From NCBI GenBank assembly GCA_026126025.1, contig JAHCJZ010000002.1, positions 62,001 to 126,000 of the forward strand: a stretch of DNA of 64,000 nt. The letters are read 5' to 3'. The notes below the pieces were generated by a model. It saw only the letters and a program-made list of their open reading frames with translations. It searched no databases and was not told where the DNA came from. Source of the DNA: Bauldia sp. Lineage in GTDB: Bacteria > Pseudomonadota > Alphaproteobacteria > Rhizobiales > Kaistiaceae. The position numbers were made by a program, and so were the translations under genes. Shown piece by piece: positions 14,564 through 32,200 of this stretch (position 1 is its first letter; each line of letters starts with the position of its first letter).

Positions 14564-14565
14564 CG

Positions 14566-15522
14566 CTACACCCTGAGCTGCCTGCTGCGGCCATAGAGCA
14601 GCATGAGAAGGAGGAGGACGCTGCCGAAGATCAGCTGCCGGCCCCAGAATTCGAGCTCGAGCGTGGTGAGGACGCTGGTCAGCAGCGTCAGCGCGATCGC
14701 CCCCAGCATGGCGCCGAAATAATTGCCGGTGCCGCCGGCCAGCGAGACGCCGCCGATGACGACGGCAATCACCGACGGCAGCACATACTGGTCGCCGACC
14801 GAGACGAAGCTGTTGCCGGTATAGCCGATCACCAGGACGCCGGTGATGCCGGCGAAGAAGCCCGACAGACCGTAGAGCAGGATGCGCACCAGCCGCACCG
14901 GCAGGCCGGCGAGGATCGCCGCGCGCTCGTTGGAGCCGATGGCGTAGATCGCGAAGCCGAGCTCGGTGCGCCGCAGCAGGAACCACATCACCAGCGCCAC
15001 CAGCGCCCAGACATAGAGGATGCCGGGAAGGCCGAGCAGAAACGGCTGGTTCACGAAGGAGCTCAGCGCCGGCGCGGCATTGCCGGAGGGAATGCCGCGG
15101 GTGATGACGGTCAGCCCGCCCTGCACGACGCCCATCATGCCGAGCGTCATCACCAGCGGCGGAATGCGCAGCAGGGTGACGCCGAGCCCGTTGACGATGC
15201 CGATCAGGAACGTCGCGCCCGAGGCGACGAGGAACGCCGGCACGATTGCGCCGTTCGCGCCGGACATGACGTTGCCGGCGAGGACCGCGCCGAGCGAGAT
15301 CATCGCGCCGACGGAGAGGTCGATGCCCTCCCGCCCGCCGATCACCACGAGACACTGCCCGGCTGCGACGATGCCGAGAAGCGCCGACACGGTCAGAAGA
15401 CGCGTGACCTGGTTGCCCTGCGCGAAGCCGGGCGAGAGGATCTCGCCGATGCCGAGAAGCGCGAGCACGGAAAGCGCAGCCAGCACCAGCGGATTGGAAA
15501 GGACGGCGCGGGTGCGGCTCAT
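14566..15522 (-). CDS. Sugar ABC transporter permease, RbsC-type (second)
   Basis: A 318-residue inner-membrane permease of the ribose/AI-2/xylose type. It is highly hydrophobic, with the family pattern GGREGIDLSVGAMISLGAVL early and GGTGNYFGAMLGAIALTLL late. The ATG at 15522 overlaps the previous permease stop (15519) in an ATGA junction. Together with its neighbour it would form a heterodimeric channel energised by the ATPase at 16490-18019. Confidence 0.93.
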   Translation of the reverse strand: MSRTRAVLSNPLVLAALSVLALLGIGEILSPGFAQGNQVTRLLTVSALLGIVAAGQCLVVIGGREGIDLSVGAMISLGAVLAGNVMSGANGAIVPAFLVASGATFLIGIVNGLGVTLLRIPPLVMTLGMMGVVQGGLTVITRGIPSGNAAPALSSFVNQPFLLGLPGILYVWALVALVMWFLLRRTELGFAIYAIGSNERAAILAGLPVRLVRILLYGLSGFFAGITGVLVIGYTGNSFVSVGDQYVLPSVIAVVIGGVSLAGGTGNYFGAMLGAIALTLLTSVLTTLELEFWGRQLIFGSVLLLLMLLYGRSRQLRV

Positions 15523-16493
15523 GCGAGCCCCCTGCCGCGGCTGTCCTGCCGGCGGGCGATGAAGACGCCGCCGGCCAGCGCGGCGAGCGTGATCAGGCCC
15601 TGGATCAGGGTCTGGTACTCGAAGGGCGGCTTGGCGAAGAAGACGACGTTGCCGATCATGCCGATGACCAGCGCGCCCAGGACCGAGCCGAAGGCGCTGC
15701 CCTTGCCGCCGGCAAGCGCGGTACCGCCGACGACGACGGCGAGGATCGAGGAAAGCGCCAGCGTGCGGCCGAGCAGCGGATCGCCGCTCGCGGTCTCGCC
15801 GGTGAGGCAGAGCGCGGCGAAGGCGGAGAACAGGCCGCAGAGGACATAGGCGCCGATGCGGACGCGCGCGGTGCGAAGGCCGGTCTGGAACGCGGCCGCG
15901 CGGTGGCCGCCGACCGCCGCGACATGCTTGATGAAGGGCCGCGCCGCGATGAGTGCGACGACGAGCAAAGCGGCGGCGTAGATCCAGTAAATGACCGGAA
16001 TGCCGAGGAGCGCGCCGCTGTAGGAGCGCCAGTAGATCGCCGGCACAGAGCCGCCCGCCGTTGGCATGACGAGAAGCGCCAGCGCACCGAACAGGATGCC
16101 GGTCGCAAAGGTCGTCACGATCGCCTGGAAGCGCAGCAGCGCAACCAGCACGCCGTTGAAGAGGCCGCAGGCGATGCCGACGCCGACACCCGCCGCCATG
16201 CCGACCAGCACCGCGTCGAGATCGGCCCCTAGCGCGGTGATCACCGTGACGGTGACGACGTTGACTAGTGCGGCGGTCGTGCCGACGGAGAGGTCGATGT
16301 CGCCGGCGAGTATCACATAGGTCTGGCCGATCGCCGCCAGCGCCACGGGGAGGAACACGGTGAGATTCGACTTGATGACGTTCGGCGTCATCAGGTTCGG
16401 CTGGAGGATCCAGTTGACGATCACCAGCACGATGAGGGCGGCGAGCGTCACCAGCCAGACCCGGCGCGACAGGAAGCGGAGCGCCGGATTCAT
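15519..16493 (-). CDS. Sugar ABC transporter permease, RbsC-type (first)
   Basis: A 324-residue polytopic permease of the same family as its neighbour: LAGDIDLSVGTTAALVNVV near residue 63 and VVGGTALAGGKGSAFGSVLG near 270 are the typical signatures. It starts at an ATG overlapping the ATPase stop by 4 bases and ends overlapping the next permease start by 4 bases, so the three proteins are translationally coupled. Having two different permease genes, rather than one as in E. coli rbs, is seen in several ribose-type systems. Confidence 0.93.
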   Translation of the reverse strand: MNPALRFLSRRVWLVTLAALIVLVIVNWILQPNLMTPNVIKSNLTVFLPVALAAIGQTYVILAGDIDLSVGTTAALVNVVTVTVITALGADLDAVLVGMAAGVGVGIACGLFNGVLVALLRFQAIVTTFATGILFGALALLVMPTAGGSVPAIYWRSYSGALLGIPVIYWIYAAALLVVALIAARPFIKHVAAVGGHRAAAFQTGLRTARVRIGAYVLCGLFSAFAALCLTGETASGDPLLGRTLALSSILAVVVGGTALAGGKGSAFGSVLGALVIGMIGNVVFFAKPPFEYQTLIQGLITLAALAGGVFIARRQDSRGRGLA

Positions 16494-18019
16494 GCTGCCT
16501 CTCCATAGGCGGCATGGGTGAGGTGGAAGCTCGTGAGCGTCGGCCCGGACAGCTCGGCGCTGATGCGGCCGGAGTTGAAGACGAGGATGCGGTCGCAGAG
16601 GCTGAGAAGCTCGGCGTCTTCGGAGGCGTAGAAGATGATGCCGACGCCTTCGGCCGCGAGGCCGCGGATCAGGGCGAAGAAGTCGGCCTTGGCGGCGAGG
16701 TCGATCCCCTTCGCCGGGTCGTCGAGGAGGAGGACGCGCGAGCCGGTGGCAAGCCAGCGGGCGATGAACACCTTCTGCTGGTTGCCGCCGGAGAGCGAGC
16801 CGATCGGTGCCTCGAGCGAAGCATAGCGCGTGTTGAGCGCCTTCACCGCCGCCTCGAAGCGCGGGCGGAGCTGCCGCGGCCAGAAGACGAAGCGCCGCTC
16901 GCGGACGATCGCGGCGGGCGCGAGGTTCTCGAAGATCGAGCGCCCGTGGAGCGCGGCATCGCGCCCGCGGTCGCCGGAGACGTAGGCGAAGCCGTGGCGA
17001 ATGGCGGTTGCGGGCGAGCGGATCGCATGCGGCGCGCCGTCGATTTCGATCGTGCCCCTGGCGAATGGCAACGCACCGAACAGGCCCTGCAGCAGCGTCG
17101 ACTGCCCCTGCCCCTGCAGGCCGCCGAGGCCGAGGATCTCGCCCTCTCCCAGCGTGAGCGTCACGTCATGGAGGCGGCGGCTCGTCGCGTTCTTCAGCGT
17201 GACCAGCGGCTTGCCGGCCGAAGCCGGCTTCGCATGCTCGACCCGCTCGCGTATCGCGGTCTCGCCGACCATCGCATGGACGACCTCGGTGCGGTTCGTC
17301 TCCGACGTGACGAAGGTCGCCGCCGTCGCGCCATTGCGCAGCACGGTGATGCGGTCGGCGATGGCGAAGATCTCGTCCATGCGGTGCGAGATGAAGATGA
17401 TCGAGACGCCGTCGGCGCGCAGCTTGCGGAGGATCTCGAAGAACACCTCGACCTGGCGGCGGTCGAGCGCCGCGGTCGCCTCGTCGAAGATGATCAGCCG
17501 GTGGCGGCGCGACAGCACCTTCAGGATCTCGACGAGCTGGCGCTGGTCGGCGCTCAGCCGTCCGACGAGGGCGTCCGGCGTCAGACCGGGTCCGGCGACG
17601 GCGGCGACGCGCGCCAGCAGCGTCGCGGCGTCCTCGCGCTTCCTGCGGCCGCTGAGAAAACCGCCGCGGCCGGTGCGCTCATCGCCGAGGAAGATGTTGT
17701 CGGCGACGGTCAGCTGGGGAACGAGCGAGAGCTCCTGGTAGAACAGCCCGATTCCGAGGCGCTCGGCGCTGCGCGGATCGCTGAGCGCGACCTCGGCGCC
17801 GTCGAGATGAACGCGGCCGGAATCGCGGGCGACGGTGCCGGCGATGATCTTGCACAGGGTCGACTTGCCGCTGCCATTGGCGCCGAGAAGCGCGTGGATC
17901 TCCCCGGCCTCGACCCGAAGCGCGCCGTCGGACAGGGCCGTCACGGCGCCGAACCGCTTTGCTACCGCGCTGATATCGAGAAGTGGCGCCATCGCGACCG
18001 GGTGTTGATCCGCGCCCAT
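16490..18019 (-). CDS. Sugar ABC transporter ATP-binding protein, RbsA-type
   Basis: A 509-residue protein with two fused nucleotide-binding domains, as in RbsA/MglA. The first has Walker A GANGSGKST (46-54) and a Walker B region IIFDEATAAL, where the usual Pro is Ala. The second has a degenerate Walker A (GLQGQGQST), LSGGNQQKVFIARWL and LLLDDPAKGID, typical for the second half of this family. Starts at 18019 or 17992 are possible; neither has a strong ribosome-binding site. It lies after the binding-protein gene, separated from it by a hairpin, and overlaps the first permease. Confidence 0.93.
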   Translation of the reverse strand: MGADQHPVAMAPLLDISAVAKRFGAVTALSDGALRVEAGEIHALLGANGSGKSTLCKIIAGTVARDSGRVHLDGAEVALSDPRSAERLGIGLFYQELSLVPQLTVADNIFLGDERTGRGGFLSGRRKREDAATLLARVAAVAGPGLTPDALVGRLSADQRQLVEILKVLSRRHRLIIFDEATAALDRRQVEVFFEILRKLRADGVSIIFISHRMDEIFAIADRITVLRNGATAATFVTSETNRTEVVHAMVGETAIRERVEHAKPASAGKPLVTLKNATSRRLHDVTLTLGEGEILGLGGLQGQGQSTLLQGLFGALPFARGTIEIDGAPHAIRSPATAIRHGFAYVSGDRGRDAALHGRSIFENLAPAAIVRERRFVFWPRQLRPRFEAAVKALNTRYASLEAPIGSLSGGNQQKVFIARWLATGSRVLLLDDPAKGIDLAAKADFFALIRGLAAEGVGIIFYASEDAELLSLCDRILVFNSGRISAELSGPTLTSFHLTHAAYGEAA

Positions 18020-18100
18020 CTTGCTGACCCGTCACCCAAGAGCAACGGCACCGCCCCCGCGGCAAGGCCGCGCCAGCGAAGCCATGTGGAAGACGTCCAG

Positions 18101-18130
18101 AAAAAGCGGACCGGGCCGCGGGGGCGGCCC
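18101..18130 (-). terminator. Attenuator hairpin between binding protein and ABC ATPase
   Basis: On the minus strand GGGCCGC-CCCC-GCGGCCC (18113-18130) is followed, after GGTCCGC, by TTTTT (18101-18105). The hairpin lies 14 bases past the binding-protein stop. Such structures often cause partial termination, so that far more binding protein than membrane complex is made. The gap between stem and T-run is longer than in a classic terminator, so processing or mRNA protection is an alternative. Confidence 0.6.
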
Positions 18131-18143
18131 GATCCCGGGAGGA

Positions 18144-19160
18144 CTACTCGAAGAACATCGCCTCGGCGTCGTCGATCGACAGCACGTCCGTGACCGACCA
18201 GTGGCCCGGCTGGCCCTCGGCCGCCGCGACCGCGTCGGCAAGGTTGGTGTTGTCGATGAAGGGGATGTCGAGGAAGATGGCGTTGCCATAGACACCGCCG
18301 AAGATGTCTTCCTCGAACTCCCCGCCGAGGAGGCGCAGCACCGCGACGTTGAGCGCGGAGGCCATGACGCCCGGCGGGTTCACCGACGCGCCGGAGTTGT
18401 AGCCGCCCGCGGACCACAGATCGAGGAAGTCCTTGCGGACCTCGCCGGTCGCCACGATGTCGGCGGTGAGGCCGGCGGCGACGATCGCACGCCACGCGCC
18501 GGCCGCCATGCCGTCCTGCACATAGACGCCGTCGATGTTGTCATAGGTGGCGAGGAGGTTCTGCATGGTCTGCTGACCCTGCGCCTGGTCCCAGTTGGCG
18601 TTGGTCTCGGTGAGGACCGTGATGCCCGGGGCGGCGGCGAAGGATTCGCGGCAGCCGGCGACGCGCATCTCATTGGCCGGATGACCGGCAAGGCCCTGTA
18701 TGGTGACGACATTGCCCTCGCCGCCGAGCGCCTCGACGAGCCAGGCGCAGCCCTTGCGGCCGTAATCGGTCTGGTCGATGCCGACATAGATCGCGTCGGG
18801 CGAGGAGACTTCGGCGTCGGTCGCGATCACCAGGATCTCGGCGGCCGCGGCCTGCGCGAAGATTGGGTCGAACGCGGTTGGGCTGTTCGGGTTGATGATG
18901 ATGGCGTCGACGCCCTGATTGATCATGTTGCGCACGGCGCCGATCTGGCCCTGGACGTCGACGTCCGAGCTCTGGATGACGAGATTGACCGTGACGCCGC
19001 GCTCGGCCCAGGCGGCCGCGGCGGCCTGCGCCTCTTCGATCATCTGGGTGCGCCATTCGGAGCCCGTCCAGCCATTGGACAGGCCGATGGTGAAGCTTTG
19101 CGCGGACGCCGTGCCGATAGTGGCCACGAGCGCGGCCGCTGCAAGACCGATAATCCTCAT
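18144..19160 (-). CDS. Sugar ABC transporter substrate-binding protein
   Basis: A 338-residue periplasmic protein with a signal peptide (MRIIGLAAAALVATIGTASA) and a ribose-type binding fold: FTIGLSNGWTGSEWRTQMIE, then NQGVDAIIINPNSPTAFDP and GVYVQDGMAAGAWRAIVAAG. The ATG at 19160 follows GGAGGGAG, an excellent ribosome-binding site. It is the first gene of the operon and receives the sugar in the periplasm for the two permeases. The ligand cannot be read from the sequence; the accompanying dehydrogenases suggest a polyol or a sugar. Confidence 0.93.
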   Translation of the reverse strand: MRIIGLAAAALVATIGTASAQSFTIGLSNGWTGSEWRTQMIEEAQAAAAAWAERGVTVNLVIQSSDVDVQGQIGAVRNMINQGVDAIIINPNSPTAFDPIFAQAAAAEILVIATDAEVSSPDAIYVGIDQTDYGRKGCAWLVEALGGEGNVVTIQGLAGHPANEMRVAGCRESFAAAPGITVLTETNANWDQAQGQQTMQNLLATYDNIDGVYVQDGMAAGAWRAIVAAGLTADIVATGEVRKDFLDLWSAGGYNSGASVNPPGVMASALNVAVLRLLGGEFEEDIFGGVYGNAIFLDIPFIDNTNLADAVAAAEGQPGHWSVTDVLSIDDAEAMFFE

Positions 19161-19224
19161 GAACTCCCTCCTGTGGCCATGAATGGCGGTCCGCAGATCC
19201 CTCCCCCGCAGACCGGATGCCAAG

Positions 19225-19251
19225 GATGTAACCGGTTACATCGGGAGTCAA
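19225..19251. promoter_or_regulatory. LacI-type operator in divergent promoter region
   Basis: GATGTAACCGGTTACATC (19225-19242) is a perfect 18-base palindrome of the TGTAACCGGTTACA type bound by many LacI/GntR-regulator-like LacI members. On the minus strand a -35-like TTGACT (19246-19251) directly precedes it, so the operator falls in the spacer and -10 area of the binding-protein promoter. It lies 65 bases from that gene's ATG and about 95 bases from the divergent monooxygenase-fold gene. It most likely serves the LacI protein at 13541-14563. Confidence 0.8.
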
Positions 19252-19337
19252 GACGGCGAAGCGAGCACTGGGGATGCGCCTTGCACCCTCCGCCCGGGCT
19301 TGTGATCTTCGCCCGCGCGAAGCGGAAGGGAACGCCG

Positions 19338-19634
19338 ATGTATGTCACCCTCGTCCATGTTCATGTGAACGCCGCCGATGTCGACGCCTTCATCGCGGCG
19401 ACGCGGCGGAACCATGAAGCTTCGGTCATGGAGCCCGGCAATCGCCGCTTCGACATCCTCCGCTCGAAGGACGACCCGACCCGCTTCGTGCTCTACGAGG
19501 CCTACGCGACACAGGCCGACGCGACCGCCCATAAGGACACCGCGCATTATCGCGCCTGGCGCGACGCGGTCGCCGGGTTCATGGCCGAGCCGCGCGCCGG
19601 CGTGGTCTATGACGGCCTCTTCCCGAGCGGCTGA
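19338..19634 (+). CDS. Antibiotic biosynthesis monooxygenase (ABM)-fold protein
   Basis: A 98-residue single-domain ferredoxin-like protein of the ABM/YgiN/LsrG type: MYVTLVHVHVNAADVDAFI, NHEASVMEPGNRRFDILRS, and FVLYEAYATQADATAHKDT. Members range from quinol monooxygenases to isomerases such as LsrG. It starts 96 bases from the shared operator and is followed three bases later by an Fe-type alcohol dehydrogenase, so the pair forms a short operon divergent from the sugar ABC genes. A role in processing the same substrate is likely, but the reaction is not known. Confidence 0.85.
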   Translation: MYVTLVHVHVNAADVDAFIAATRRNHEASVMEPGNRRFDILRSKDDPTRFVLYEAYATQADATAHKDTAHYRAWRDAVAGFMAEPRAGVVYDGLFPSG

Positions 19635-19637
19635 TCG

Positions 19638-20840
19638 ATGAATCCCTTCGCCGGCATTGCGCCGTTCTCACTGTCGCGGCTGCCGCGCATCATCTTGGGC
19701 GCCGGCACGGTCCGGCAGCTTCCCGAGACCGCGCGTGCGTTCGGCACGAAGGCGCTGCTCGTCACCGGCACGCGCTCGCTGCGCATGTCGGCCCACTGGG
19801 CGCCGCTGACGGCGGGCCTTCGCGAGGCCAGTATCGCGTGGGAGGAGCTGGCGGTTTCGGGCGAGCCGTCGCCGCAGCTGGTCGACGGCGCGGTGTGGGC
19901 GCTCCACGACCGGGCGATCGAGGTGGTGATCGGGATCGGCGGCGGCAGCGTGCTCGACGCCGCCAAGGCGATCGCCGGCCTGTTGCGCCCCGGCAATTCG
20001 GTGATGGACCATCTCGAGGGCGTCGGCCCGGAGCTGCCCTATCGCGGACCCGCCGTCCCCTTCATCGCCGTCCCGACGACGGCCGGCACCGGCAGCGAGG
20101 CGACGAAGAACGCCGTGCTCAGCGTTCACGGCGCGGACGGCTTCAAGAAATCGTTCCGCGACGACCGGCTCGTCGCCGAATACGCCATCGTCGATCCGGA
20201 CCTCCTCGCCGGCTGTCCGCCGGAGCTGATCGCGGCCGACGGCATGGACGCGCTGACGCAGCTTCTGGAGTCGCTCGTCTCGACGCGCGCCAGCCCGTTC
20301 ACCGATGCGCTGGCGCTGTCGGGCCTTGCGGCGGTGCGGGACAGCCTCGCGCCCTGGTTCGAAGGGCGCGGCGACGTGGCGGCCGCACAGTCGGGCATGG
20401 CCTATGCCGCCCTCCTCTCCGGCATCACGCTGGCGCAGGCCGGCCTCGGCGCGGTGCATGGCCTCGCCGCGCCGATGGGCGCCTTCTTCGACATCCCGCA
20501 CGGCGTGGTGTGCGGAACGCTGGTGGCGGACACGACGCGCGCCAACATCGCCGCGCTAACGGCACGCGTTCCGCAGAGCATGGCGCTCGCCAAATACGCG
20601 ACGGCCGGCCGCGTGCTCGCGGACGATGATCGCCTCGGCGACGCGGCCGCGCGCGATGCGCTAGTCGCGACACTCGATACGTTGACCGCGCGGCTCGCGC
20701 TGCCGCGGCTCGCCGCCTACGGTATCGGGGAGGACGATATCGACCGCATCGTCGCCGCGTCCGGCGGTTCGAGCATGAAGACGAACCCGATCGTGCTCAC
20801 GGCGCCCGAGCTCGCGACGATCCTCCGCGCGCGCATCTGA
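19638..20840 (+). CDS. Iron-containing alcohol dehydrogenase
   Basis: A 400-residue group III (Fe-type) alcohol dehydrogenase. The NAD-binding motif GIGGGSVLDAAKAIAGLL (residues about 98-115) and PTTAGTGSEATKNAVLS are present, as are GAVHGLAAPMGAFFDIPHG with two candidate metal-binding His. The usual DALTH ligand stretch reads DALTQLLES, so one His is Gln; this occurs in one branch of the family. It should interconvert an alcohol and an aldehyde or ketone with NAD(P)H. The operon position with the ABM-fold protein and the shared LacI operator suggest it acts on an intermediate of the imported sugar or polyol. Confidence 0.92.
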   Translation: MNPFAGIAPFSLSRLPRIILGAGTVRQLPETARAFGTKALLVTGTRSLRMSAHWAPLTAGLREASIAWEELAVSGEPSPQLVDGAVWALHDRAIEVVIGIGGGSVLDAAKAIAGLLRPGNSVMDHLEGVGPELPYRGPAVPFIAVPTTAGTGSEATKNAVLSVHGADGFKKSFRDDRLVAEYAIVDPDLLAGCPPELIAADGMDALTQLLESLVSTRASPFTDALALSGLAAVRDSLAPWFEGRGDVAAAQSGMAYAALLSGITLAQAGLGAVHGLAAPMGAFFDIPHGVVCGTLVADTTRANIAALTARVPQSMALAKYATAGRVLADDDRLGDAAARDALVATLDTLTARLALPRLAAYGIGEDDIDRIVAASGGSSMKTNPIVLTAPELATILRARI

Positions 20841-22825: not shown

Positions 22826-24268
22826 TCAATTGCCCTGATAGATGCGTCCGTTGGGCATGAGCGATCCCTCGAAGAGGGCCCCTTCGGTGATGGCGCCGGC
22901 GGTGTTGGAGGCGGTGAGGCGCGAGCCGCGGATGTCTGCGTCGGTCAGGTTGGCGTCGCGCAGCGTCGCGCCGTAGAGGTCGACCCCGCGCATCGAGGCG
23001 CCGACGAGGATCGCGCCCTGCAGCTCGCCATTGGCGATGACGCTGCCGTCGAGCACCGCCCCGGTCAGGTCGGCGCGCGAGAAGATCGCGTCGAGCAGGA
23101 TCGAGACCGAGAGATTGGCCCCGGCGAGGTTGGCGTCGGCGAAGCGCGCCGCCCGCACATTGGAGCCGGCGATGACGGCGCCCGATGCATTGGCGCGCAC
23201 CCAGCGCGATTCGCCCATCCGTGTGGCCGAGAGATCGGCATCGGCAACGTTGGCGGCCGAGAGGTCGGCGCGGAACAGCATGGCGCCGGTCAGCGTCGCG
23301 CCGCTGAGATCGGCATTGAGGAGCCGTGCCTTGTTGAGGTTGGCGCCGCTGAGATCGGCGCCGGCGAGATTGGCGCCGGTGAGGTTGGCGTCGTGGAGAT
23401 TGGCCCCGGCGAGGTTCGCGCCGGCAAGGTTGGCGCCCGACAGATCGAGCCGCTTCAGATTGGCGCCGCTGAGATCGCAGCCCGGACAGTCCAGCACGGC
23501 GGACCGGTCGGCGGTTTCGGCTTCCGCCCATTCGAGGGCGACCGCGGTGGCGATCGGCTCCGCCGGCATCATCTCGAACCGCGTGGTGCTTTCCAGATAG
23601 CCCGGCTGCAGCACGTTCTCGACCGGATCGAGGAGCTGCTGACCGGGCTTGCGGTAGTGATGCTGGACCATGGTCAGCACCGCGTCGTCCCGGGTCAGCG
23701 TGCAGGTGCGGTCGACATAAAGGCCGTTGGCGGGGTTGTAGCCCTCGCGCGGCGGATGATCGACGCACTCCCAGCCGGCCGAGCCGAAGCGCGACTTGAT
23801 GAACTCGCCGAGGTCGCTGGCATGGTCGCGCTCGGCGAGCGACTGCGCGCGGGGATCGGTGACGACGCGGATGCCCTGGATAATCCCCGCCTCGTCGACG
23901 AGCAGCGAGACGATCGATTCGAAACCGAACACCCGCGTTCCGGTGAGCCGGGCGATGAGGTCGCCATTCTCGTGCGCCCGGGCGATATATTCCTGCTCGT
24001 CGTCATAGGCGAAATGCACCTCGCGAAGGCCGCTCGCCTCCGGCGCGCAGGTCATGAAGGCCGTGAAATCGGCCAGCGGCCGAGACGGCGGCCCGCCATT
24101 GGTGCCGCACGCGATCAGCCGCACCGCCGACGCCGGGATCGTCGCCACCTCCGTCCCGAGATTGATGTCCCAGACCTCGAGCTGGTCCGTGATCTGGGCA
24201 TGCGCAGTCGGCGCCGAGACGACTGATGCGAGGCAGATTGCGAAGACGAGGCAGCGGCGAAGGCTCAT
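22826..24268 (-). CDS. Exported pentapeptide-repeat protein
   Basis: A 480-residue protein with a signal peptide (MSLRRCLVFAICLASVVSAPTAHA). Residues about 25-255 form an unrecognised domain with several Cys (for example IACGTNGGPP and FMTCAPEASG). From about 258 to 470 the sequence is dominated by A(D/N)LxG pentapeptide repeats (DLSGANLAGANLAGANL), which fold into a right-handed quadrilateral beta-helix. Export to the periplasm is predicted. The gene follows the four PQQ-dehydrogenase genes on the same strand with only hairpins between, so a scaffold or partner role for those enzymes is conceivable but unproven. Confidence 0.85.
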   Translation of the reverse strand: MSLRRCLVFAICLASVVSAPTAHAQITDQLEVWDINLGTEVATIPASAVRLIACGTNGGPPSRPLADFTAFMTCAPEASGLREVHFAYDDEQEYIARAHENGDLIARLTGTRVFGFESIVSLLVDEAGIIQGIRVVTDPRAQSLAERDHASDLGEFIKSRFGSAGWECVDHPPREGYNPANGLYVDRTCTLTRDDAVLTMVQHHYRKPGQQLLDPVENVLQPGYLESTTRFEMMPAEPIATAVALEWAEAETADRSAVLDCPGCDLSGANLKRLDLSGANLAGANLAGANLHDANLTGANLAGADLSGANLNKARLLNADLSGATLTGAMLFRADLSAANVADADLSATRMGESRWVRANASGAVIAGSNVRAARFADANLAGANLSVSILLDAIFSRADLTGAVLDGSVIANGELQGAILVGASMRGVDLYGATLRDANLTDADIRGSRLTASNTAGAITEGALFEGSLMPNGRIYQGN

Positions 24269-24412: not shown

Positions 24413-26125
24413 CTACAGCGTGAACACGATCAGGCCCGACGAGTTCGGGCCCACCGGTGCACCGAAGAAGCCGAAGGGGTTCGGCGCGCCGCCGGTCTGG
24501 ATCGCGATGTACTGCTTGCCGTTTACTGCATAGCTGAACGGCGGCGACAGCATCTGGGCGCCGACATTGGTCGACCAGAGGAGGTCGAGCGTGTCGGCGT
24601 CGTAGGCCATCAGGGCGCCGACGCTGTTGCCGAGGAAGACCAGGCCGCCGGCGGTGGTCAGCGTGCCGGACCGCGACTCGATGTCGTCCGGCAGATCGGC
24701 GGAAGCCGCGATCTCGCCAGTGGTCGCATCGATCGCCGCAAGCCGCCAGCCGCCCGCCTCCGCGCCGAGGATCGGCCCGCCGAGGCCCTGCGCACCGAAG
24801 CGCTGCTCCACGCTCTGGTTGAAGTCCCAGTCGACGAGCGTGGTGAGGCAGCTGGTGTCGGGCGAGGTGTTGAAGACGCGCTGCCGCTCGGGATCATAGG
24901 CTGGCGGCCAGGTCCCGGTGATGAACCCGCCGCCGCACATCGACACCGGCGTCTCGCTCCGCTCCGGGTTGAGGGCATAGCGCTGCAGCGGCGCGTCCGG
25001 ATCGTATTCCACCGGCTTGCCGGTCTTCGGATCGATGCCGGCCGTCCAGTCGATGTTGGTCTGGTGCGGCACCGCGCCGAGGAACTCGCCGGTGTTGCGG
25101 TCGAATGTGTAATAGTAGCCGGTCCGCGACAGGTGCCCGAGCGCCGAGCGCATCTCGCCGTTGACCGGGACGTCGAACAGGAGGTGCGGCGACACCTCGT
25201 CATGCTCGTGGGCGTCGTTCGGCGTGTACTGGAAGTACCAGACGATCTCGCCGGTATCGCCGTTCAGCACCACCGTGCTGGCGGTATAGAGATTGTCGCC
25301 GGGACGGAACTCGGCGTCCCAGGCAGGCGACGGATTGCCGGTGCCGACGAAGATGAGGTTGGTGTCGGGGTCGTAGGTCGGCGAGATCCAGACGCCGCCG
25401 CCGCCGGTCATCCAGGAATCATTGTCCTGCGGCCAGGTCTCGTGGCCGGGCTCGCCCGGGCCCGGCACCATGTAGGTCCGCCACTGTTCGGCGCCTTCGA
25501 CCGGATCGACCGCGATGACGTAGCCGCGGGTGCCGGCGTCGCCGATCGCCTGGCCGATGATGAGGCTGTCGTCGAGCGCGACGGGGCTGGCGTCGAAGAA
25601 CTCGCCGGGCTCGACATAGCTCTGTTCCCACAGCACCTCGCCGCTGTCGCGGGCGATGCCGAGCACCGTGCCGAAGCGAGTGACGGAATAGACATTGTCG
25701 CCCCACAGCGCCGGCCCCTGGAGGCGTCCCTGCTGCTCGGGCGGCGTCGTCTCGACCCGCCACAGCTGGGTGCCGGAAGTGCCGCTGCCGGCGTCGATCT
25801 TCACGACCGCGTTGGTCATGTCGACGGTGTAGATGAAGCCGTCGTCGGCCAGCGGCGCCGACTGGAGATTGCCGCCGAGGCCGCCCTGCATCGACAGCGG
25901 CACGGCAAAGGCAAACCGCAGCCCGGCGACGGTGTCCCGGTTGATCTCATCGAGTGCTGAATAGCGCCAGCCCTCATAGTTGCCGAAGACGTGGAGCCAG
26001 TTCTCGGCTTCGGGGTTGGCGAGGCGGTCGAAGGTCACGGTGTCTTCGGCCAGGGCCGGCTGCGCCACGGACGACAGGAGAAGCGCAACGGCACCGTATT
26101 TCCACAGCTTGTGCTTATGCTTCAC
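24413..26125 (-). CDS. PQQ-dependent dehydrogenase paralog 1
   Basis: A 570-residue periplasmic quinoprotein with a signal peptide (GAVALLLSSVAQPALA). It has the eight-bladed propeller repeats of PQQ alcohol dehydrogenases (GTSGTQLWRVETTP, DSGEVLWEQSYV, GDTGEIVWYFQYTPND). The conserved Asn is in VGTGNPSPAW (Asn264). At the two acidic positions of methanol-type enzymes it has Asp196 (IGDAGTRGY) where Glu is usual and Glu307 (DAHEHDE) where Asp is usual, plus Asp309, a position kept in lanthanide enzymes. The PQQ-stacking vicinal Cys pair is absent (PEQQGRLQG). The GTG at 26125 has GGAGGG at 6 bases and aligns with the other paralogs' starts. Electrons should pass to the cytochrome c at 31736-32200. 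The alcohol or aldehyde substrate is unknown. Confidence 0.88.
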   Translation of the reverse strand: MKHKHKLWKYGAVALLLSSVAQPALAEDTVTFDRLANPEAENWLHVFGNYEGWRYSALDEINRDTVAGLRFAFAVPLSMQGGLGGNLQSAPLADDGFIYTVDMTNAVVKIDAGSGTSGTQLWRVETTPPEQQGRLQGPALWGDNVYSVTRFGTVLGIARDSGEVLWEQSYVEPGEFFDASPVALDDSLIIGQAIGDAGTRGYVIAVDPVEGAEQWRTYMVPGPGEPGHETWPQDNDSWMTGGGGVWISPTYDPDTNLIFVGTGNPSPAWDAEFRPGDNLYTASTVVLNGDTGEIVWYFQYTPNDAHEHDEVSPHLLFDVPVNGEMRSALGHLSRTGYYYTFDRNTGEFLGAVPHQTNIDWTAGIDPKTGKPVEYDPDAPLQRYALNPERSETPVSMCGGGFITGTWPPAYDPERQRVFNTSPDTSCLTTLVDWDFNQSVEQRFGAQGLGGPILGAEAGGWRLAAIDATTGEIAASADLPDDIESRSGTLTTAGGLVFLGNSVGALMAYDADTLDLLWSTNVGAQMLSPPFSYAVNGKQYIAIQTGGAPNPFGFFGAPVGPNSSGLIVFTL

Positions 26126-26203
26126 GGTTCCCTCCCTCAACGACTGCGTTTCTTGTTTCGACCGGCAACGCCGGGGCCGCGCCGTCCCCTTGCCGGACCA
26201 GAG

Positions 26204-26232
26204 GGAGCCGGCGGGCAGCGCCCGCCGGCTCC
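26204..26232 (-). terminator. Hairpin after PQQ-dehydrogenase paralog 2
   Basis: A perfect 13-pair stem (GGAGCCGGCGGGC with its complement) encloses a 3-base AGC loop, 7 bases past the stop of paralog 2. No T-run follows. It fits a strong 3'-end or intercistronic stabilising structure. Confidence 0.6.
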
Positions 26233-26239
26233 GGCCTCG

Positions 26240-27943
26240 TCAGAGCGCGAACACCCAGAGGTTCGACGAGTTCGGACCCACCGGCCGGCCGAGGATGCCG
26301 CCGGGCGTCGGTCCGCCGCCGGTCTGGATTGCGACATACTGCTTGCCGCCGACGGCGTAGGTGATCGGCGGCGACAGCATCTGGGCGCCGAGATTGATCG
26401 ACCACAGCCGCTCCAGCGTATCGGAATCATGGGCCGCCAATGTGCCCACGCTGTCGCCGAAGAAGATCACGCCGCCCGCGGTCGCGAGGACGCCGGCATG
26501 GGGCTCGATCGGCAGATCGGCCGAAGCGACGATCTCGCCGGTCGCGCCATTCGTGGCGTTGACCCGGAAGGCCCTGTCGGTGAGGCCGAGCGGACCGCCG
26601 AAGCCCTGGACGCCGAACCGCTCCTCGACCGGGGCGATCTCCCAGTTGACGCGGATGCCGGTGTAGCAGCTGTCGTCGGCCGAGGTGTTGTAGACGAGCT
26701 GGCGCTCGGGGTCGTAGGCCGGCGGCCAGGTGCCGGTGAGGAAGAGGCCGCCGCAGAAGGTGACGGTGTCCTCGCCCGGCTCCGGATTGATCGCATAGCG
26801 CTGGTGCGCGACCTCCGGATTGTACTCGACGGGCTTGCCGGTCTTGGGGTCGATGCCGGCCGACCAGTCGATGACCGACTGCGCCGGCTCGGCGCCCAGG
26901 AACTCGCCCGACAGCCGGTCGAACCGGAAGAAGTAGCCGGTGCGCGAGATGTGGCCGAAGATCTGCCGGGTCTCGCCGTCGATCTCGACGTCGTAGAGCA
27001 TGTGCGGCGAGACGGCGTCCTTCTCATGGGCGTCGTTCGGGACGTACTGGAAGTACCACGCGATCTCGCCGGTATCGCCGTCGAGGACGACGGTGCTCGA
27101 CGCGAAAAGATTGTCGCCGGCGCGGAACTCGGAATCCCAGGCCGGCGCGGCGTTGCCGGTGCCGACGAAGATGAGATTGTTGACGGGATCGTAGGTCGGC
27201 GCGATCCAGATGCCCGCACCGCCCGTCATCCAGGCATCATTGTCCTGCGGCCAGGTGTCGTGGCCGAACTCGCCGGGACCGGGGACGGTGTAGAAGCGCC
27301 ATTGCTCCGTGCCGTCGAGCGGGTCGACGGCCATGACATAGCCGCGGGTGCCCCAGTCGCCGCGCGCCTGGCCGACGATGATGCTGTCGTCGAGCGCGAT
27401 CGGGCTGGCGTCGAACGCCTCGCCGTCAACGCCGTAGCTCACTTCCCAGGCGACCTCGCCGCTCTCGCGCTCGACTGCGATGACCGTGCCGAGACGCGTC
27501 GCGGAATAGACGTAGTCGCCCCACAGCGCCGGCCCCTGGATGCGGCCCTGCTGCTCGGGCGGCGTCGTCTCGACCCGCCAGAGCTGGGTCGCCGCGACGC
27601 CGCTGCCGGTGTCGATCTTCACCAGCGCGCCGGTGAGGTCGATCGTGTAGATGAATCCGTCGTCCGCGAGTGGCGCGGACTGGAGGTTGCCGCCGAGGCC
27701 GCCGCGCATGGAGAGCGGGGCGGCGAAGGCGAGCCGGAGATCCCCGACATTGTCGGCGTTGATCTCGTCGAGTTCCGAATAGCGCCAGCCTTGGTAGTTG
27801 CCATAGACCGACAGCCAGTTCTCGGGCTCCGGATTGGCGAGGCGTTCGAAGGTGACGCTGTCCTCGGCCTGCGCCGACACCGCCACGGAGGAGAGGAGGA
27901 GGCCGGCAAGACCCGACTTCAACAGCTTAGGGGCATGCTTCAT
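26240..27943 (-). CDS. PQQ-dependent dehydrogenase paralog 2
   Basis: A 567-residue paralog of its neighbours with signal peptide GLAGLLLSSVAVSAQA. Propeller motifs (GVAATQLWRVETTP; GDTGEIAWYFQYVPND) and VGTGNAAPAW with Asn264 are present; this is the only copy with NAAPAW rather than NPSPAW. The acidic site shows Asp196 (RGDWGTRGY), Glu307 and Asp309 in DAHEKDAVS, where Ala replaces the Glu found after Asp309 in the other copies. No vicinal Cys pair is seen (PEQQGRIQG). Its differences at substrate-facing positions suggest a separate specificity. It is preceded by 144 bases and a hairpin. Confidence 0.88.
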   Translation of the reverse strand: MKHAPKLLKSGLAGLLLSSVAVSAQAEDSVTFERLANPEPENWLSVYGNYQGWRYSELDEINADNVGDLRLAFAAPLSMRGGLGGNLQSAPLADDGFIYTIDLTGALVKIDTGSGVAATQLWRVETTPPEQQGRIQGPALWGDYVYSATRLGTVIAVERESGEVAWEVSYGVDGEAFDASPIALDDSIIVGQARGDWGTRGYVMAVDPLDGTEQWRFYTVPGPGEFGHDTWPQDNDAWMTGGAGIWIAPTYDPVNNLIFVGTGNAAPAWDSEFRAGDNLFASSTVVLDGDTGEIAWYFQYVPNDAHEKDAVSPHMLYDVEIDGETRQIFGHISRTGYFFRFDRLSGEFLGAEPAQSVIDWSAGIDPKTGKPVEYNPEVAHQRYAINPEPGEDTVTFCGGLFLTGTWPPAYDPERQLVYNTSADDSCYTGIRVNWEIAPVEERFGVQGFGGPLGLTDRAFRVNATNGATGEIVASADLPIEPHAGVLATAGGVIFFGDSVGTLAAHDSDTLERLWSINLGAQMLSPPITYAVGGKQYVAIQTGGGPTPGGILGRPVGPNSSNLWVFAL

Positions 27944-28047
27944 TGCGATTTCGATTCCTGATTGAGCTCGCCTCGAGCGGGCGAGCGTTGATTTCCTTTC
28001 CGGTTACTCCGGTCCCCCGAACCGGCTGCACCTCCTTCCGCAGCGGA

Positions 28048-28076
28048 GCGGCCGGGTCGCGCTGCGACCCGGCCGC
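28048..28076 (-). terminator. Hairpin after PQQ-dehydrogenase paralog 3
   Basis: A perfect 13-pair stem (GCGGCCGGGTCGC and complement) with a 3-base GCT loop begins 11 bases past the stop of paralog 3. Its sequence is unrelated to the hairpins after the other paralogs although its shape and place are the same. Confidence 0.6.
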
Positions 28077-28087
28077 GATGGTTGGCC

Positions 28088-29797
28088 TCAGAGCGCGAAC
28101 ACCCAGAGGTTGGACGAGTTCGGGCCCGACGGCGGATCGAAGAAGCCGCCGGCATTGGGTCGGCCGCCTGACTGGACCGCGATGTACTGCTTGCCGTCCA
28201 CCGCATAGCTGAAGGGCGGCGAGACGATCATCGCGCCGAGATTGATCGACCACAGGAGGTCGAGCGTATCGGCGTCATAGGCCTGCAGATTGCCGACGCC
28301 GTCGCCCATGAAGACGAGGCCGCCGGCGGTGTTGAGCGTGCCCGCCCGCGCCTCGATGCCGTTGTCGTAGGACGCGACGATCTCGCCGGTGCGCGCGTCG
28401 GTGGCGTTGATCCGGTAGCCGGAATTCGCCACCCCGATCGGACCGCCGAGACCCTGGCGGCCGAAGCGCTCCTCGACGGTCTGGGTATCGTCCCAGTCGA
28501 TCCGGACGCCGGGATTGCAGCTGTCGTCGGGCGACGAGTTGTAGACCCGCTGACGCTCGGGATCGTATGACGGCGGCCAGGTGCCGGTGAGGAAGAGGCC
28601 GCCGCAGAGCTCGACGGTTTCCTCACCGCGCTCCGGGTTGACGGCGTAGCGCTGGAAGTCGACGTCGGGATCGTACTCCACCGGCAGGCCGGTCTTCGGG
28701 TCGATGCCGGCGGTCCAGGTGATCACGCTCTGGCCCGGTACGGCGCTGAGATACTCACCGGTGTTGCGGTCGAAGGTGTAGTAGTAGCCGGTGCGCGAGA
28801 AATGGCCGAACACCTGGCGCATCTCGCCACCCACCTCGACGTCGAAGAGGATGTGCGGCGAGATCTCGTCGTGCTCATGCGCGTCGTTGGGCGTGTACTG
28901 GAAGTACCAGACGAGCTCGCCGGTATCGCCGTCCAGCACCGCGGTGCTGGCGGTGTAGAGATTGTCGCCGGCGCGGAATTCGGCGTCCCAGGCGGGCGAT
29001 GGATTGCCGGTGCCGACGAAGATGAAGTTGGTGTCGGGGTCGTAGGTCGGCGCCACCCAGACGCCGCCGCCGCCGGTCATCCAGGAATCATTGTCCTGCG
29101 GCCAGGTCTCGTGGCCCGGCTCGCCCGGACCCGGAACCGCCCACCAGCGCCACAGCTCGGTGCCGTCGTCGGGATCGACCGCGAAGACGTAGCCGCGGGT
29201 GCCGGAATCGCCGCGCGCCTGGCCGACGATGATCTTGCCGCCGTCGATGGCGATCGGGCTCGCATCGAAGAACTCGCCCGGCACCACATAGCCCTCTTCC
29301 CAGAGCACCTCGCCGCTGTCGCGCGCCGCGGCAAGGACGGTGCCGAGCCGGGTCGCGGAGTAGACCGCGTCGCCCCAGAGGGCGGCGCCCTGAATGCGAC
29401 CCTGCTGCTCTGCAGGCGTCGTCTCGAGGCGCCACAGCTGGGTGCCGGCCGTGCCGCTGCCGACGTCGATCTTCACGATCGCGTCCTGCATATCCATCGT
29501 GTAGATGAAGCCGTCGTCGACCAGCGGAACCGACTGAAGGTTGCCGCCGAGGCCGCCTTGCATCGAAAGCGGAACGGCAAACGCCAGCCGGAGGTCGGCG
29601 ACGTTGTCCTTGTTGATCTCGTCGAGCGCCGAATAGCGCCAGCCCTGGTAGTTGCCGTAGACCGTGAGCCAATTCCCGGGCTCGGGGTTGGAGAGACGCT
29701 CGAACGTCACCGTGCTTTCGGCGAATGCCGGCATCGCGACGGTCGAGGTCAGCAACGCGACCGCACCGAACGTCAACAATCTGCGCTGGTATTTCAT
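28088..29797 (-). CDS. PQQ-dependent dehydrogenase paralog 3
   Basis: A 569-residue copy with signal peptide GAVALLTSTVAMPAFA and the same propeller (GTAGTQLWRLETTP; GDTGELVWYFQYTPND). The active-site positions read Asp197 (RGDSGTRGY), Asn265 (VGTGNPSPAW), Glu308 and Asp310 (DAHEHDEIS). The vicinal Cys pair is replaced by EQQG. Two distant Cys (LCGGLFLTGTWPP and PDDSCNPG) are shared by all four copies and might form another disulfide. The frame is open upstream to 30187, inside paralog 4, but the ATG at 29797 has GGAAGGA at 8 bases and aligns with the family start. Confidence 0.88.
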   Translation of the reverse strand: MKYQRRLLTFGAVALLTSTVAMPAFAESTVTFERLSNPEPGNWLTVYGNYQGWRYSALDEINKDNVADLRLAFAVPLSMQGGLGGNLQSVPLVDDGFIYTMDMQDAIVKIDVGSGTAGTQLWRLETTPAEQQGRIQGAALWGDAVYSATRLGTVLAAARDSGEVLWEEGYVVPGEFFDASPIAIDGGKIIVGQARGDSGTRGYVFAVDPDDGTELWRWWAVPGPGEPGHETWPQDNDSWMTGGGGVWVAPTYDPDTNFIFVGTGNPSPAWDAEFRAGDNLYTASTAVLDGDTGELVWYFQYTPNDAHEHDEISPHILFDVEVGGEMRQVFGHFSRTGYYYTFDRNTGEYLSAVPGQSVITWTAGIDPKTGLPVEYDPDVDFQRYAVNPERGEETVELCGGLFLTGTWPPSYDPERQRVYNSSPDDSCNPGVRIDWDDTQTVEERFGRQGLGGPIGVANSGYRINATDARTGEIVASYDNGIEARAGTLNTAGGLVFMGDGVGNLQAYDADTLDLLWSINLGAMIVSPPFSYAVDGKQYIAVQSGGRPNAGGFFDPPSGPNSSNLWVFAL

Positions 29798-29875
29798 TGC
29801 GGATTTCCTTCCCAAAGGCAGCTCTGTTCTTGTTGATTCCCATCGCCGCCGGCTGCCGTCGCGGATCCGCGGGGT

Positions 29876-29904
29876 GCGAAGGGGCGGCGCGGCCGCCCCC
29901 TCGC
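29876..29904 (-). terminator. Hairpin after PQQ-dehydrogenase paralog 4
   Basis: GCGA-a-GGGGCGGC pairs with GCCGCCCC-c-TCGC around a 3-base loop (12 pairs, one mismatch), 8 bases past the stop of paralog 4. Again there is no T-run. Confidence 0.55.
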
Positions 29905-29912
29905 CTGTCACG

Positions 29913-31622
29913 TCAGAGTGCGAACACCCAGAGGTTGGAGGAGTTCGCGCCGGACGGGGCTCCGAAGAAGCCGCCGGCATTCGGCGCGCCGCCGCTCTGG
30001 ATCGCGATGTACTGCTTGCCGTCCACCGCATAGCTGAACGGCGGCGACACCAGCTGCGCACCGAGATTGACCGACCACACGAGCTGAAGCGTGTCGGCGT
30101 CATAGGCCTGGAACATGCCGACGCTGTCGCCGATGAACACCAGCCCGCCCGCGGTGGTGAGGAGGCCGGACCGCGACTCGACGGCAAGGTCGGTCGAGGC
30201 GACGATCTCGCCCGTGGTCGCGGAGGTCGCGTTTATGCGATAGCCGGAATCGGCGAGGCCGAGCGGACCGCCGAGACCCTGGGCGCCGAAGCGTTCCTCG
30301 ACCGGCCAGTCCATGTCGAACTCGACGCGGATGCCGGTGAAGCAGCTGCTGTCGGGCGAGGTGTTGAACACCAGCTGGCGTTCCGGATCATAGGCCGGAG
30401 GCCAGGTGCCGGTGAGGAACAGGCCGCCGCAGAAATCGACGGTTGCCTCCCCGCGCTCCGGATTGATCAGGTAGCGCTGCATCTCGGCCTCGGGGTCGTA
30501 CTCGACCGGCTGGCCGGTCTTCGGATCGATACCCGCCGTCCAGTCGATGTTCGACTGGGCCGGAACCGCGCTGATGAACTCGCCGGTGTTGCGGTCGAAG
30601 GTGAAGAAGTAGCCGGTGCGCGAGAAATGCCCGAACGCCTGGCGCATCTCGCCGTTGAGCTCGATGTCGTAGAGGATGTGCGACGAGATCTCGTCCTTCT
30701 CGTGCGCGTCGTTCGGCGTGTACTGGTGGTACCAGACGAGCTCGCCGGTATCGCCGTCGAGCACGATCGTGCTGGCGGTGTAGAGATTGTCGCCCGCCCT
30801 GAATTCGGCGTCCCAGGCCGGCGACGGGTTGCCGCTGCCGACGAAGATCTGGTTGGTGTCGGGGTCGAAGGTCGGCGCCACCCAGACGCCGCCGCCGCCC
30901 GTCATCCAGGAATCATTGTCCTGCGGCCAGGTCTCGTGGCCGGGCTCGCCCGGGCCGGGCACGACGTAGAAGCGCCAGAGCTCGGTGCCGTCATCGGCGT
31001 CGACCGCCATGACGTAGCCGCGCGTGCCGGCGTCGCCGATCGCCTGGCCGACGATGATCTTGTCCTCGATCGCGATCGGGCTGGCGTCGAAGATCTCGCC
31101 TTCGACGATGTAGCTGTTCTCCCACAGCACCTCGCCGGAGTCGCGGGCCGCGGCGAGCACGGTGCCGAGGCGCGTGGCGGTATAGACGTTGTCGCCATAG
31201 AGGGCGGCGCCCTGGATGCGGCCCTGCTGCTCGGCCGGCGTCGTCTCCACCCGCCACAGCTGCGTGCCGGAGGTGCCGCTGCCGACGTCGATCTTCACGA
31301 GCGCGTTGGCAAGGTCCATCGTATAGATGAAGCCGTCATCGACGAGCGGGACCGACATCAGATTGCCGCCGAGACCGCCACGCATCGACAGCGGCACGGC
31401 GAAGGCCAGCCTGAGGCCGGCGATATTGTCCCTGTTGACTTCGTCGAGGGCCGAGTAGCGCCAGCCCTGGTAATTGCCGTAAACGTTGAGCCAGTTCCCA
31501 GGCTCGGGGTTGGAGAGCCGCGCGAAGGTTGCGCTGTCCTCGGCCAGAGCGGGGGCGGCGGCGGCGGTCGACAAAAGAAGAGCCGCTGCGCCAAACTTCA
31601 GCAGTCTGCGCTGGGTAGTCAT
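29913..31622 (-). CDS. PQQ-dependent dehydrogenase paralog 4
   Basis: A 569-residue copy and the first of the four to be transcribed. The signal peptide is GAAALLLSTAAAAPALA. Key positions are Asp197 (IGDAGTRGY), Asn265 (VGSGNPSPAW, Ser where the others have Thr), Glu308 and Asp310 (DAHEKDEIS). EQQG at 131-134 takes the place of the vicinal Cys pair. The ATG at 31622 has AGGGAGGAAG, the best ribosome-binding site of the four. It follows the cytochrome c gene by 113 bases. The order cytochrome c then dehydrogenases suggests one transcript with graded stability, or separate ones. Confidence 0.88.
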   Translation of the reverse strand: MTTQRRLLKFGAAALLLSTAAAAPALAEDSATFARLSNPEPGNWLNVYGNYQGWRYSALDEVNRDNIAGLRLAFAVPLSMRGGLGGNLMSVPLVDDGFIYTMDLANALVKIDVGSGTSGTQLWRVETTPAEQQGRIQGAALYGDNVYTATRLGTVLAAARDSGEVLWENSYIVEGEIFDASPIAIEDKIIVGQAIGDAGTRGYVMAVDADDGTELWRFYVVPGPGEPGHETWPQDNDSWMTGGGGVWVAPTFDPDTNQIFVGSGNPSPAWDAEFRAGDNLYTASTIVLDGDTGELVWYHQYTPNDAHEKDEISSHILYDIELNGEMRQAFGHFSRTGYFFTFDRNTGEFISAVPAQSNIDWTAGIDPKTGQPVEYDPEAEMQRYLINPERGEATVDFCGGLFLTGTWPPAYDPERQLVFNTSPDSSCFTGIRVEFDMDWPVEERFGAQGLGGPLGLADSGYRINATSATTGEIVASTDLAVESRSGLLTTAGGLVFIGDSVGMFQAYDADTLQLVWSVNLGAQLVSPPFSYAVDGKQYIAIQSGGAPNAGGFFGAPSGANSSNLWVFAL

Positions 31623-31735: not shown

Positions 31736-32200
31736 TTAGCCGCGCGCGGCGGCGACGTCCTCGAGGGTGATCTCGGGCAGCGGCAGGCGGCCGCCCCACT
31801 CGTCGCGAATCCAGGTGGCGAGGGCGAGGACCTCCTCGTCGGACAGCATCTCGCCGAAGGCCGGCATGCCGCCGCTGCCGTTGATGATCTGGTTGAGGAG
31901 GTGGCCGGCATCGCGAATGCCCAGGGAACCGTTGAGCGCGGGACCGCGGCCGCCGCCACCCGCCTCGCCATGGCACCCGGCGCAGCCGATGGTCGTGTAG
32001 ATCTCGGCGCCCGAGATCTCGGCCTCGCCTTCCGCGGAGGCGTCCGCGGCGGCGTCGTCAGGCGCATCGGCCGCCGCATTGCTGGCCGGTTGCGCGATCT
32101 GGATCGAGTAGCCCGGCGAGGCCACCGTCAAGGTGAGGCCGGCCGCCAAAACCCCCACCAGGCCGAACGCCGTCCTGGTCCTTCCACGAATGATCTTCAC
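31736..32200 (-). CDS. Exported monoheme c-type cytochrome
   Basis: A 154-residue protein with an N-terminal signal or anchor (FGLVGVLAAGLTLTVASPG), an acidic Ala-rich linker (41-60) and one cytochrome c domain: heme site CAGCH (73-77) and a likely axial Met112 in GGMPAF. The GTG at 32200 is preceded by AGGAG at 6 bases; an ATG at 32215 is in frame but lacks a site. Its place just upstream of four quinoprotein genes makes it the likely electron acceptor of the PQQ dehydrogenases, like the cytochromes that accompany methanol and ethanol dehydrogenases. Confidence 0.85.
   Translation of the reverse strand: MKIIRGRTRTAFGLVGVLAAGLTLTVASPGYSIQIAQPASNAAADAPDDAAADASAEGEAEISGAEIYTTIGCAGCHGEAGGGGRGPALNGSLGIRDAGHLLNQIINGSGGMPAFGEMLSDEEVLALATWIRDEWGGRLPLPEITLEDVAAARG

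Follow-up and report, generated by a model that had tools for sequence, protein, structure and literature searches.

What kind of enzyme is encoded by a run of tandem quinoprotein genes in which two acids of the active site appear to have changed places? The genes in question, four in number, lie in a 64,000-nucleotide stretch of Bauldia sp. contig JAHCJZ010000002.1 (positions 62,001 to 126,000; hereafter the window) and encode relatives of the pyrroloquinoline quinone (PQQ)-dependent methanol and ethanol dehydrogenases. From an alignment by eye, the first-pass annotation held that all four copies have Asp in place of the usual metal-binding Glu and Glu in place of the usual catalytic Asp, and that they keep the Asp two residues further on (+2) that marks lanthanide-type enzymes. 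Structure-anchored alignment bears out each of these statements. All four copies carry a GQA[I/R]GD motif, which puts Asp at the position of the metal ligand Glu177 of MxaF, and an NDAHE[H/K]D motif, which puts Glu at the position of the catalytic Asp303 of MxaF (AHEHDE or AHEKDE/A, with AHEKDA in copy 3); the +2 Asp, equivalent to Asp301 of XoxF2, is retained in each. Canonical numbering was checked by aligning a relative to XoxF2 (Protein Data Bank, PDB, 4mae), in which Glu55, Cys104-Cys105, Arg110, Thr154, Ser169, Glu172, Trp238, Asn256, Asp299, Asp301 and Arg326 fall at the expected positions. The metal ligands of XoxF are Glu, Asn, Asp and Asp, and second-shell residues of MxaF include Thr159, Ser174 and Arg331 (PMC8028316). 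Misalignment was considered as a source of the apparent swap and rejected: neither site shows a gap when aligned with solved quinoproteins or canonical relatives, and each is flanked by anchors on either side.

The exchange is not confined to the four copies. Both exchanged residues are fixed in all seven members of a paralog subgroup (‘AHE’) that comprises the window copies, two genes on contig C4 and one on C34. Since the pair is fixed in seven paralogs and purifying selection acts on the genes (pairwise ratios of nonsynonymous to synonymous substitution rates, dN/dS, of 0.14-0.39, well below 1 in every pair), it is not a product of chance. Eleven of 14 pocket positions are invariant among the seven, compared with 260 of 542 positions overall; together with the dN/dS values, this identifies the pocket as a conserved, changed site and not a decaying one.

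The exchange is only part of a larger remodelling of the cofactor pocket, the rest of which the first-pass annotation did not mention. The vicinal Cys-Cys is absent, and the four copies have a shortened loop, EQQGRxQG, instead. Throughout the AHE subgroup Glu55 is replaced by Gln or Met, Arg109 by Gln, Thr159 by Asp, Ser174 by Ala, Thr241 by Gly and Asn394 by Thr (Ile in one case). Trp476 is replaced by Arg, His or Gln, a position that varies even among canonical sequences. Trp243, Asn261, Trp265, Arg331 and the +2 Asp are invariant in all seven. Other members of the wider clade described below, and the acidobacterial relatives as well, have Arg or Lys at position 109 (one Gln, in the sister of the AHE group) and Thr or Ser at position 159 almost throughout; by this comparison the AHE subgroup is the most altered of the sequences compared.

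The fold is that of a PQQ dehydrogenase. An AlphaFold2 model of copy 1 (built from 78 sequences; mean predicted local distance difference test, pLDDT, 92.4) is an eight-bladed quinoprotein propeller, and the 27 top VIA-align rows for this model are all PQQ dehydrogenases (Z 41-48). The family profiles place the four proteins near, but outside, the curated subfamily of PQQ-dependent methanol/ethanol dehydrogenases: TIGR03075 matches them at 346-356 bits (E 1e-103 to 1e-106), below its 480-bit cut-off, and the modelled propeller agrees with that family while the metal Glu, the catalytic Asp and the vicinal Cys-Cys are missing from all four. For each of the four, NCBIfam ranks TIGR04528, ‘acido-empty-quinoprotein group A’, second (319-343 bits against a cut-off of 650); if that name is read as denoting a host without PQQ synthesis, the Bauldia genome, with PqqE and two PqqC, does not fit it. 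A methanol dehydrogenase mutant with Glu at the catalytic position, D303E, is reportedly active with changed kinetics. Its crystal structure (1h4j) is among the solved matches of the copy 1 model, and because that structure exists, Glu at this position is compatible with the fold. The mutant is, however, an engineered single change in a calcium enzyme that has Glu177 and Cys-Cys and lacks the +2 Asp, whereas the Glu found here is natural and combined with other changes.

Among solved structures the best match is PedH of Pseudomonas putida (6zcw), a lanthanide-dependent PQQ alcohol dehydrogenase (Z 47.7, root-mean-square deviation 1.9 A over 512 residues, 29% identity). PedH shares with the four copies the fold, the +2 Asp, the Asn, the Trp floor and the Arg, but it has the vicinal Cys-Cys, the metal Glu and the catalytic Asp where they have none, Asp and Glu, respectively. 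The same holds for XoxF2 of Methylacidiphilum (4mae) and XoxF1 (7o6z): the fold and the equivalents of Asn256, Asp301, Arg326 and Trp238 are common to both sides, whereas Glu172 corresponds to Asp and Asp299 to Glu, and the equivalents of Cys-Cys, Glu55, Arg110 and Thr154 are changed.

Related genes number about 50 in the host genome (3.2 Mb, 99.6% complete): 43 belong to a single kind, and seven more distant ones lie on contig C2. The latter (C2:43000-72500; L043, L044) are quinoprotein-like, with a motif RDQWDLDHP and a different metal-site region. An alignment of 78 sequences, including the 43 paralogs, shows how the pair is distributed. At the metal, catalytic and +2 positions, 15 of the 43 have Asp/Glu/Asp and 26 have Asp/Asp/Asp; of the other two, one is without the metal residue and C41:231103 is canonical, with Cys-Cys, Glu, Asp and Asp; the +2 Asp is present in 43/43. 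On the tree the clade, which lacks Cys-Cys, adjoins C41:231103 and canonical genes of other genomes, and Asp at the metal position is the norm of the whole clade (about 50 sequences). Two sister groups have Glu at the catalytic position, the seven AHE paralogs and eight ‘GFEWDE’ paralogs, and in C41:121126, the nearest sister of the AHE paralogs, Asp is retained. When the site columns are excluded from the tree, two Glu-to-Asp changes, two Asp-to-Glu changes and three losses of Cys-Cys are needed. The ‘reciprocal swap’ thus arose stepwise, the Glu-to-Asp change being clade-wide and the Asp-to-Glu change occurring later inside the clade. The suggestion of an unusual, conserved active site therefore holds in that the exchange is real, conserved and unusual; the picture of one reciprocal swap in four tandem paralogs does not.

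Glu-to-Asp occurred once in this clade and once separately in Acidobacteria (L087-L090). Cys-Cys is absent from each of these two lineages; in a third, Cys-Cys was lost and Glu kept. A coupling between loss of the disulfide and the Glu-to-Asp change is a lead, with too few pairs and a third lineage that does not follow it. The acidobacterial sequences, relatives of TIGR04528, resemble the four copies in both features but retain Arg109, the catalytic Asp and, in most cases, Thr159, and their genomes are without pqqE. They form an independent lineage beside relatives (L091-L092) that keep both the metal Glu and Cys-Cys.

Among the sequences examined, the Asp/Glu pair occurs only in the Bauldia genome, and no well-known subfamily was found in which it is the norm. 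It was found in none of the inspected relatives from 28 same-family, 199 same-order and 385 class-sample genomes or from a GTDB r220 scan (best few matches per genome, so that rare cases may escape), and in a phylum sample of 398, compared by identity only, no match outside the Bauldia genome exceeded 38% identity. Large quinoprotein gene repertoires as such are already known; we found no published description of the Asp/Glu pair or of the combined loss of PQQ contacts. Among other variants seen, in a candidate from genome G306 (L142) the catalytic position is occupied by Asn (AWNLDE), and two Planomicrobium (Bacillota) loci (L093, L103), in genomes without pqqE, contain a Gram-positive quinoprotein dehydrogenase of the Cys-Cys type fused or joined to further sequence.

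The Bauldia genome is predicted to make PQQ. PqqE (604 bits, cut-off 381) and two PqqC (359 bits each) score above their cut-offs, and PqqA and PqqB are readable in the same operon as PqqE, about 28 kb beyond the end of the window (C12:154163-157400, L046). An Asp/Asp/Asp paralog is found about 3 kb away from the second pqqC (C45:115922-116683, L110). Across 385 alphaproteobacterial genomes, pqqE is present in 8/12 with a strong match to the clade and in 59/373 others (Fisher p 1.6e-4, uncorrected for shared ancestry). Absence of pqqE does not prove absence of PQQ, since the acidobacterial genomes with canonical Cys-Cys enzymes (L091, L092) are, like those of L087-L090, without it, and since PQQ can be imported (PMC12124388). 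A fused SoxYZ protein is reported to accompany enzymes of the Cys-Cys type (PMC12997753); no match to the fused SoxYZ profile reached the cut-off in the Bauldia genome.

The four dehydrogenase genes are complete (567-570 codons), all on the minus strand and separated by gaps of about 115-145 bases, and each encodes a Sec-type signal peptide; copies 2-4 are 72-80% identical to copy 1. A cytochrome c gene precedes them in the direction of transcription and a gene for a pentapeptide-repeat protein follows, all in the same direction, and the six look like a single transcription unit. Consensus-based scans for promoters and terminators returned nothing above chance, and no viral relatives were found.

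Features of the dehydrogenase cluster and its flanking genes, in window positions, with the exchanged and +2 residues of each copy
Feature	Position	Strand	Description
Cytochrome c gene	31736..32200	-	154 aa, exported c-type, one CxxCH heme motif (CAGCH), Pfam Cytochrome_CBB3 1.5e-14
Dehydrogenase copy 1	29913..31622	-	569 aa, Sec-type signal peptide, eight-bladed quinoprotein propeller (model)
Dehydrogenase copy 2	28088..29797	-	569 aa
Dehydrogenase copy 3	26240..27943	-	567 aa
Dehydrogenase copy 4	24413..26125	-	570 aa, GTG start
Partner gene	22826..24268	-	480 aa, exported; ~230-residue N-terminal domain + pentapeptide-repeat solenoid
Copy 1 residues	Asp197 31032..31034; Glu308 30699..30701; Asp310 (+2 Asp) 30693..30695	-	alignment
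Copy 2 residues	Asp197 29207-29209; Glu308 28874-28876; Asp310 28868-28870	-	alignment
Copy 3 residues	Asp196 27356-27358; Glu307 27023-27025; Asp309 27017-27019	-	alignment
Copy 4 residues	Asp196 25538-25540; Glu307 25205-25207; Asp309 25199-25201	-	alignment

The small cytochrome c likely accepts electrons from the dehydrogenases. Immediately upstream of another AHE member, on C34, is a gene for a close homolog (L026_4969_5445_+, 175 bits), so that a cytochrome c gene of the same kind stands upstream of two separate loci of the subgroup, which we count in favour of a working dehydrogenase. Sugar-type ATP-binding cassette (ABC) transporter genes, a GFO/IDH/MocA oxidoreductase and an iron-type alcohol dehydrogenase are encoded near the cluster (window 12304-20840), and these genes are a possible hint to the substrate.

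The partner protein matches Pfam Pentapeptide (1.7e-39) from residue 264 only; its N-terminal domain of about 230 residues matches no Pfam family. Its model is of high confidence (pLDDT 94.2), but the list of structure matches is filled by the pentapeptide solenoid, and no fold match was isolated for the N-terminal domain. This domain is present in 20 copies in the Bauldia genome and in 17 copies in genome G010, with few elsewhere; some copies are made up of the domain alone, and four Cys are conserved in nearly all. By comparison of coordinates, 18 of the 20 lie at most 1 kb downstream of, and on the same strand as, a clade dehydrogenase, and almost all dehydrogenase clusters of the clade are followed directly by a gene for the domain. 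Of the eight class-sample genomes with the domain, seven also match the clade strongly (p 2.7e-11, with no correction for kinship). In G215/G193 the domain is found next to a canonical enzyme. Pseudomonas offers a precedent for such a neighbourhood in PedD (PP_2673), an uncharacterised exported pentapeptide protein encoded beside the PQQ alcohol dehydrogenase PedE (PMC12997753, PMC7188995); the likeness lies in neighbourhood and repeats, and the Bauldia protein has the additional N-terminal domain.

What, then, do the four genes encode? We consider it more probable than any competing answer, and slightly better than an even bet, that the four arose by recent tandem duplication and that each encodes a metal-dependent quinoprotein dehydrogenase of the periplasm, a member of the methanol/ethanol (PQQ) superfamily with a re-specified active site. 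We favour this reading because of the matches to PQQ-dehydrogenase folds, the invariant Trp243, Asn261, Trp265, Arg331 and +2 Asp alongside the exchanged acids, the dN/dS values, the pqq genes and the association of the clade with pqqE. The residues, the modelled fold, purifying selection, the PQQ synthesis genes, the neighbouring cytochrome c and the order of changes on the tree are observed; binding of PQQ and a metal, the identity of that metal, catalysis by Glu308 and electron transfer to the cytochrome would follow from them if the reading is right. A metal (lanthanide or calcium) would be held by Asp197, Asn265, Glu308 and Asp310, with PQQ stacked on Trp247. Glu308, one carbon longer, would replace the catalytic Asp as base or as assistant in hydride transfer, and the shorter Asp197 would make room for it. 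An alcohol-type substrate would be oxidised and the electrons would exit via the cytochrome encoded just upstream. On the tree, Glu-to-Asp preceded Asp-to-Glu, and it either accompanied or followed loss of the vicinal disulfide. The single feature that suggests a lanthanide is the D-x-D motif.

Several points weigh against a re-specified PQQ enzyme. By alignment, most of the PQQ contacts other than the metal (Cys-Cys, 55, 109, 159, 174 and 394) are altered or missing in the AHE subgroup, so that PQQ binding itself is in doubt, and the Asp that replaces Thr159 would be expected to repel a carboxylate of PQQ. Arg135, invariant and two residues before the Gln137 that occupies the Arg109 position, could take over from Arg109 given a shift of the shortened loop, which would offset these losses in part. 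The PQQ genes of Bauldia could serve other paralogs instead, and the related genome G306 (2.5 Mb, 98% complete) has about 27 family candidates and neither pqqE nor pqqC.

These points lead to the alternative that ranks next, an empty or re-purposed quinoprotein: the subgroup would work without PQQ, its propeller holding only a metal or another small molecule, or serving a binding or scaffold role with the pentapeptide partner. Besides the altered contacts, the TIGR04528 matches and the acidobacterial relatives with the same Asp-for-Glu and no Cys-Cys in genomes without pqqE speak for it. We regard it as unlikely, though worth keeping in view, as the scores fall below the TIGR04528 cut-off, Trp243, Asn261, Arg331 and the three acids are invariant, and the genome itself appears to make PQQ. 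The acidobacterial argument is weak, given the L091 and L092 genomes and the import of PQQ noted above. A bolder proposal, that the AHE subgroup is a natural quinoprotein-fold enzyme without PQQ or with a different cofactor, with a lanthanide or other metal on Asp/Asn/Glu/Asp and working with the pentapeptide-fused partner, seems to us rather improbable.

We give still less credence to the idea that the four are plain lanthanide-dependent PQQ alcohol dehydrogenases in which the exchange is near-neutral, geometry is conserved and nothing is functionally new. The D-x-D motif in all aligned paralogs and PedH as the nearest fold fit this idea, but the exchange comes with other pocket changes, and the motif has been validated, per the literature consulted, only alongside Glu, Cys-Cys and the catalytic Asp. 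That tandem copies are drifting without function as decaying pseudo-enzymes, as the loss of several canonical residues might suggest, is refuted in the main by four intact frames with signal peptides and by the invariance of the pocket, and pseudogenes are rejected by dN/dS; we consider decay highly improbable.

The four genes matter beyond this locus. In large surveys the D-x-D motif by itself now serves to assign metal dependence to PQQ dehydrogenases. In the present case D-x-D occurs in a pocket with changed metal Glu, catalytic Asp and PQQ contacts, in a genome with about 50 such genes, and the motif rule therefore has to be put to the test. Among the paralogs there is a natural series (Cys-Cys/Glu/Asp, no Cys-Cys/Asp/Asp, no Cys-Cys/Asp/Glu) by which what the disulfide, the metal Glu and the catalytic acid each contribute could be told apart, and the conserved partner gene is a first handle on the function of these many enzymes.

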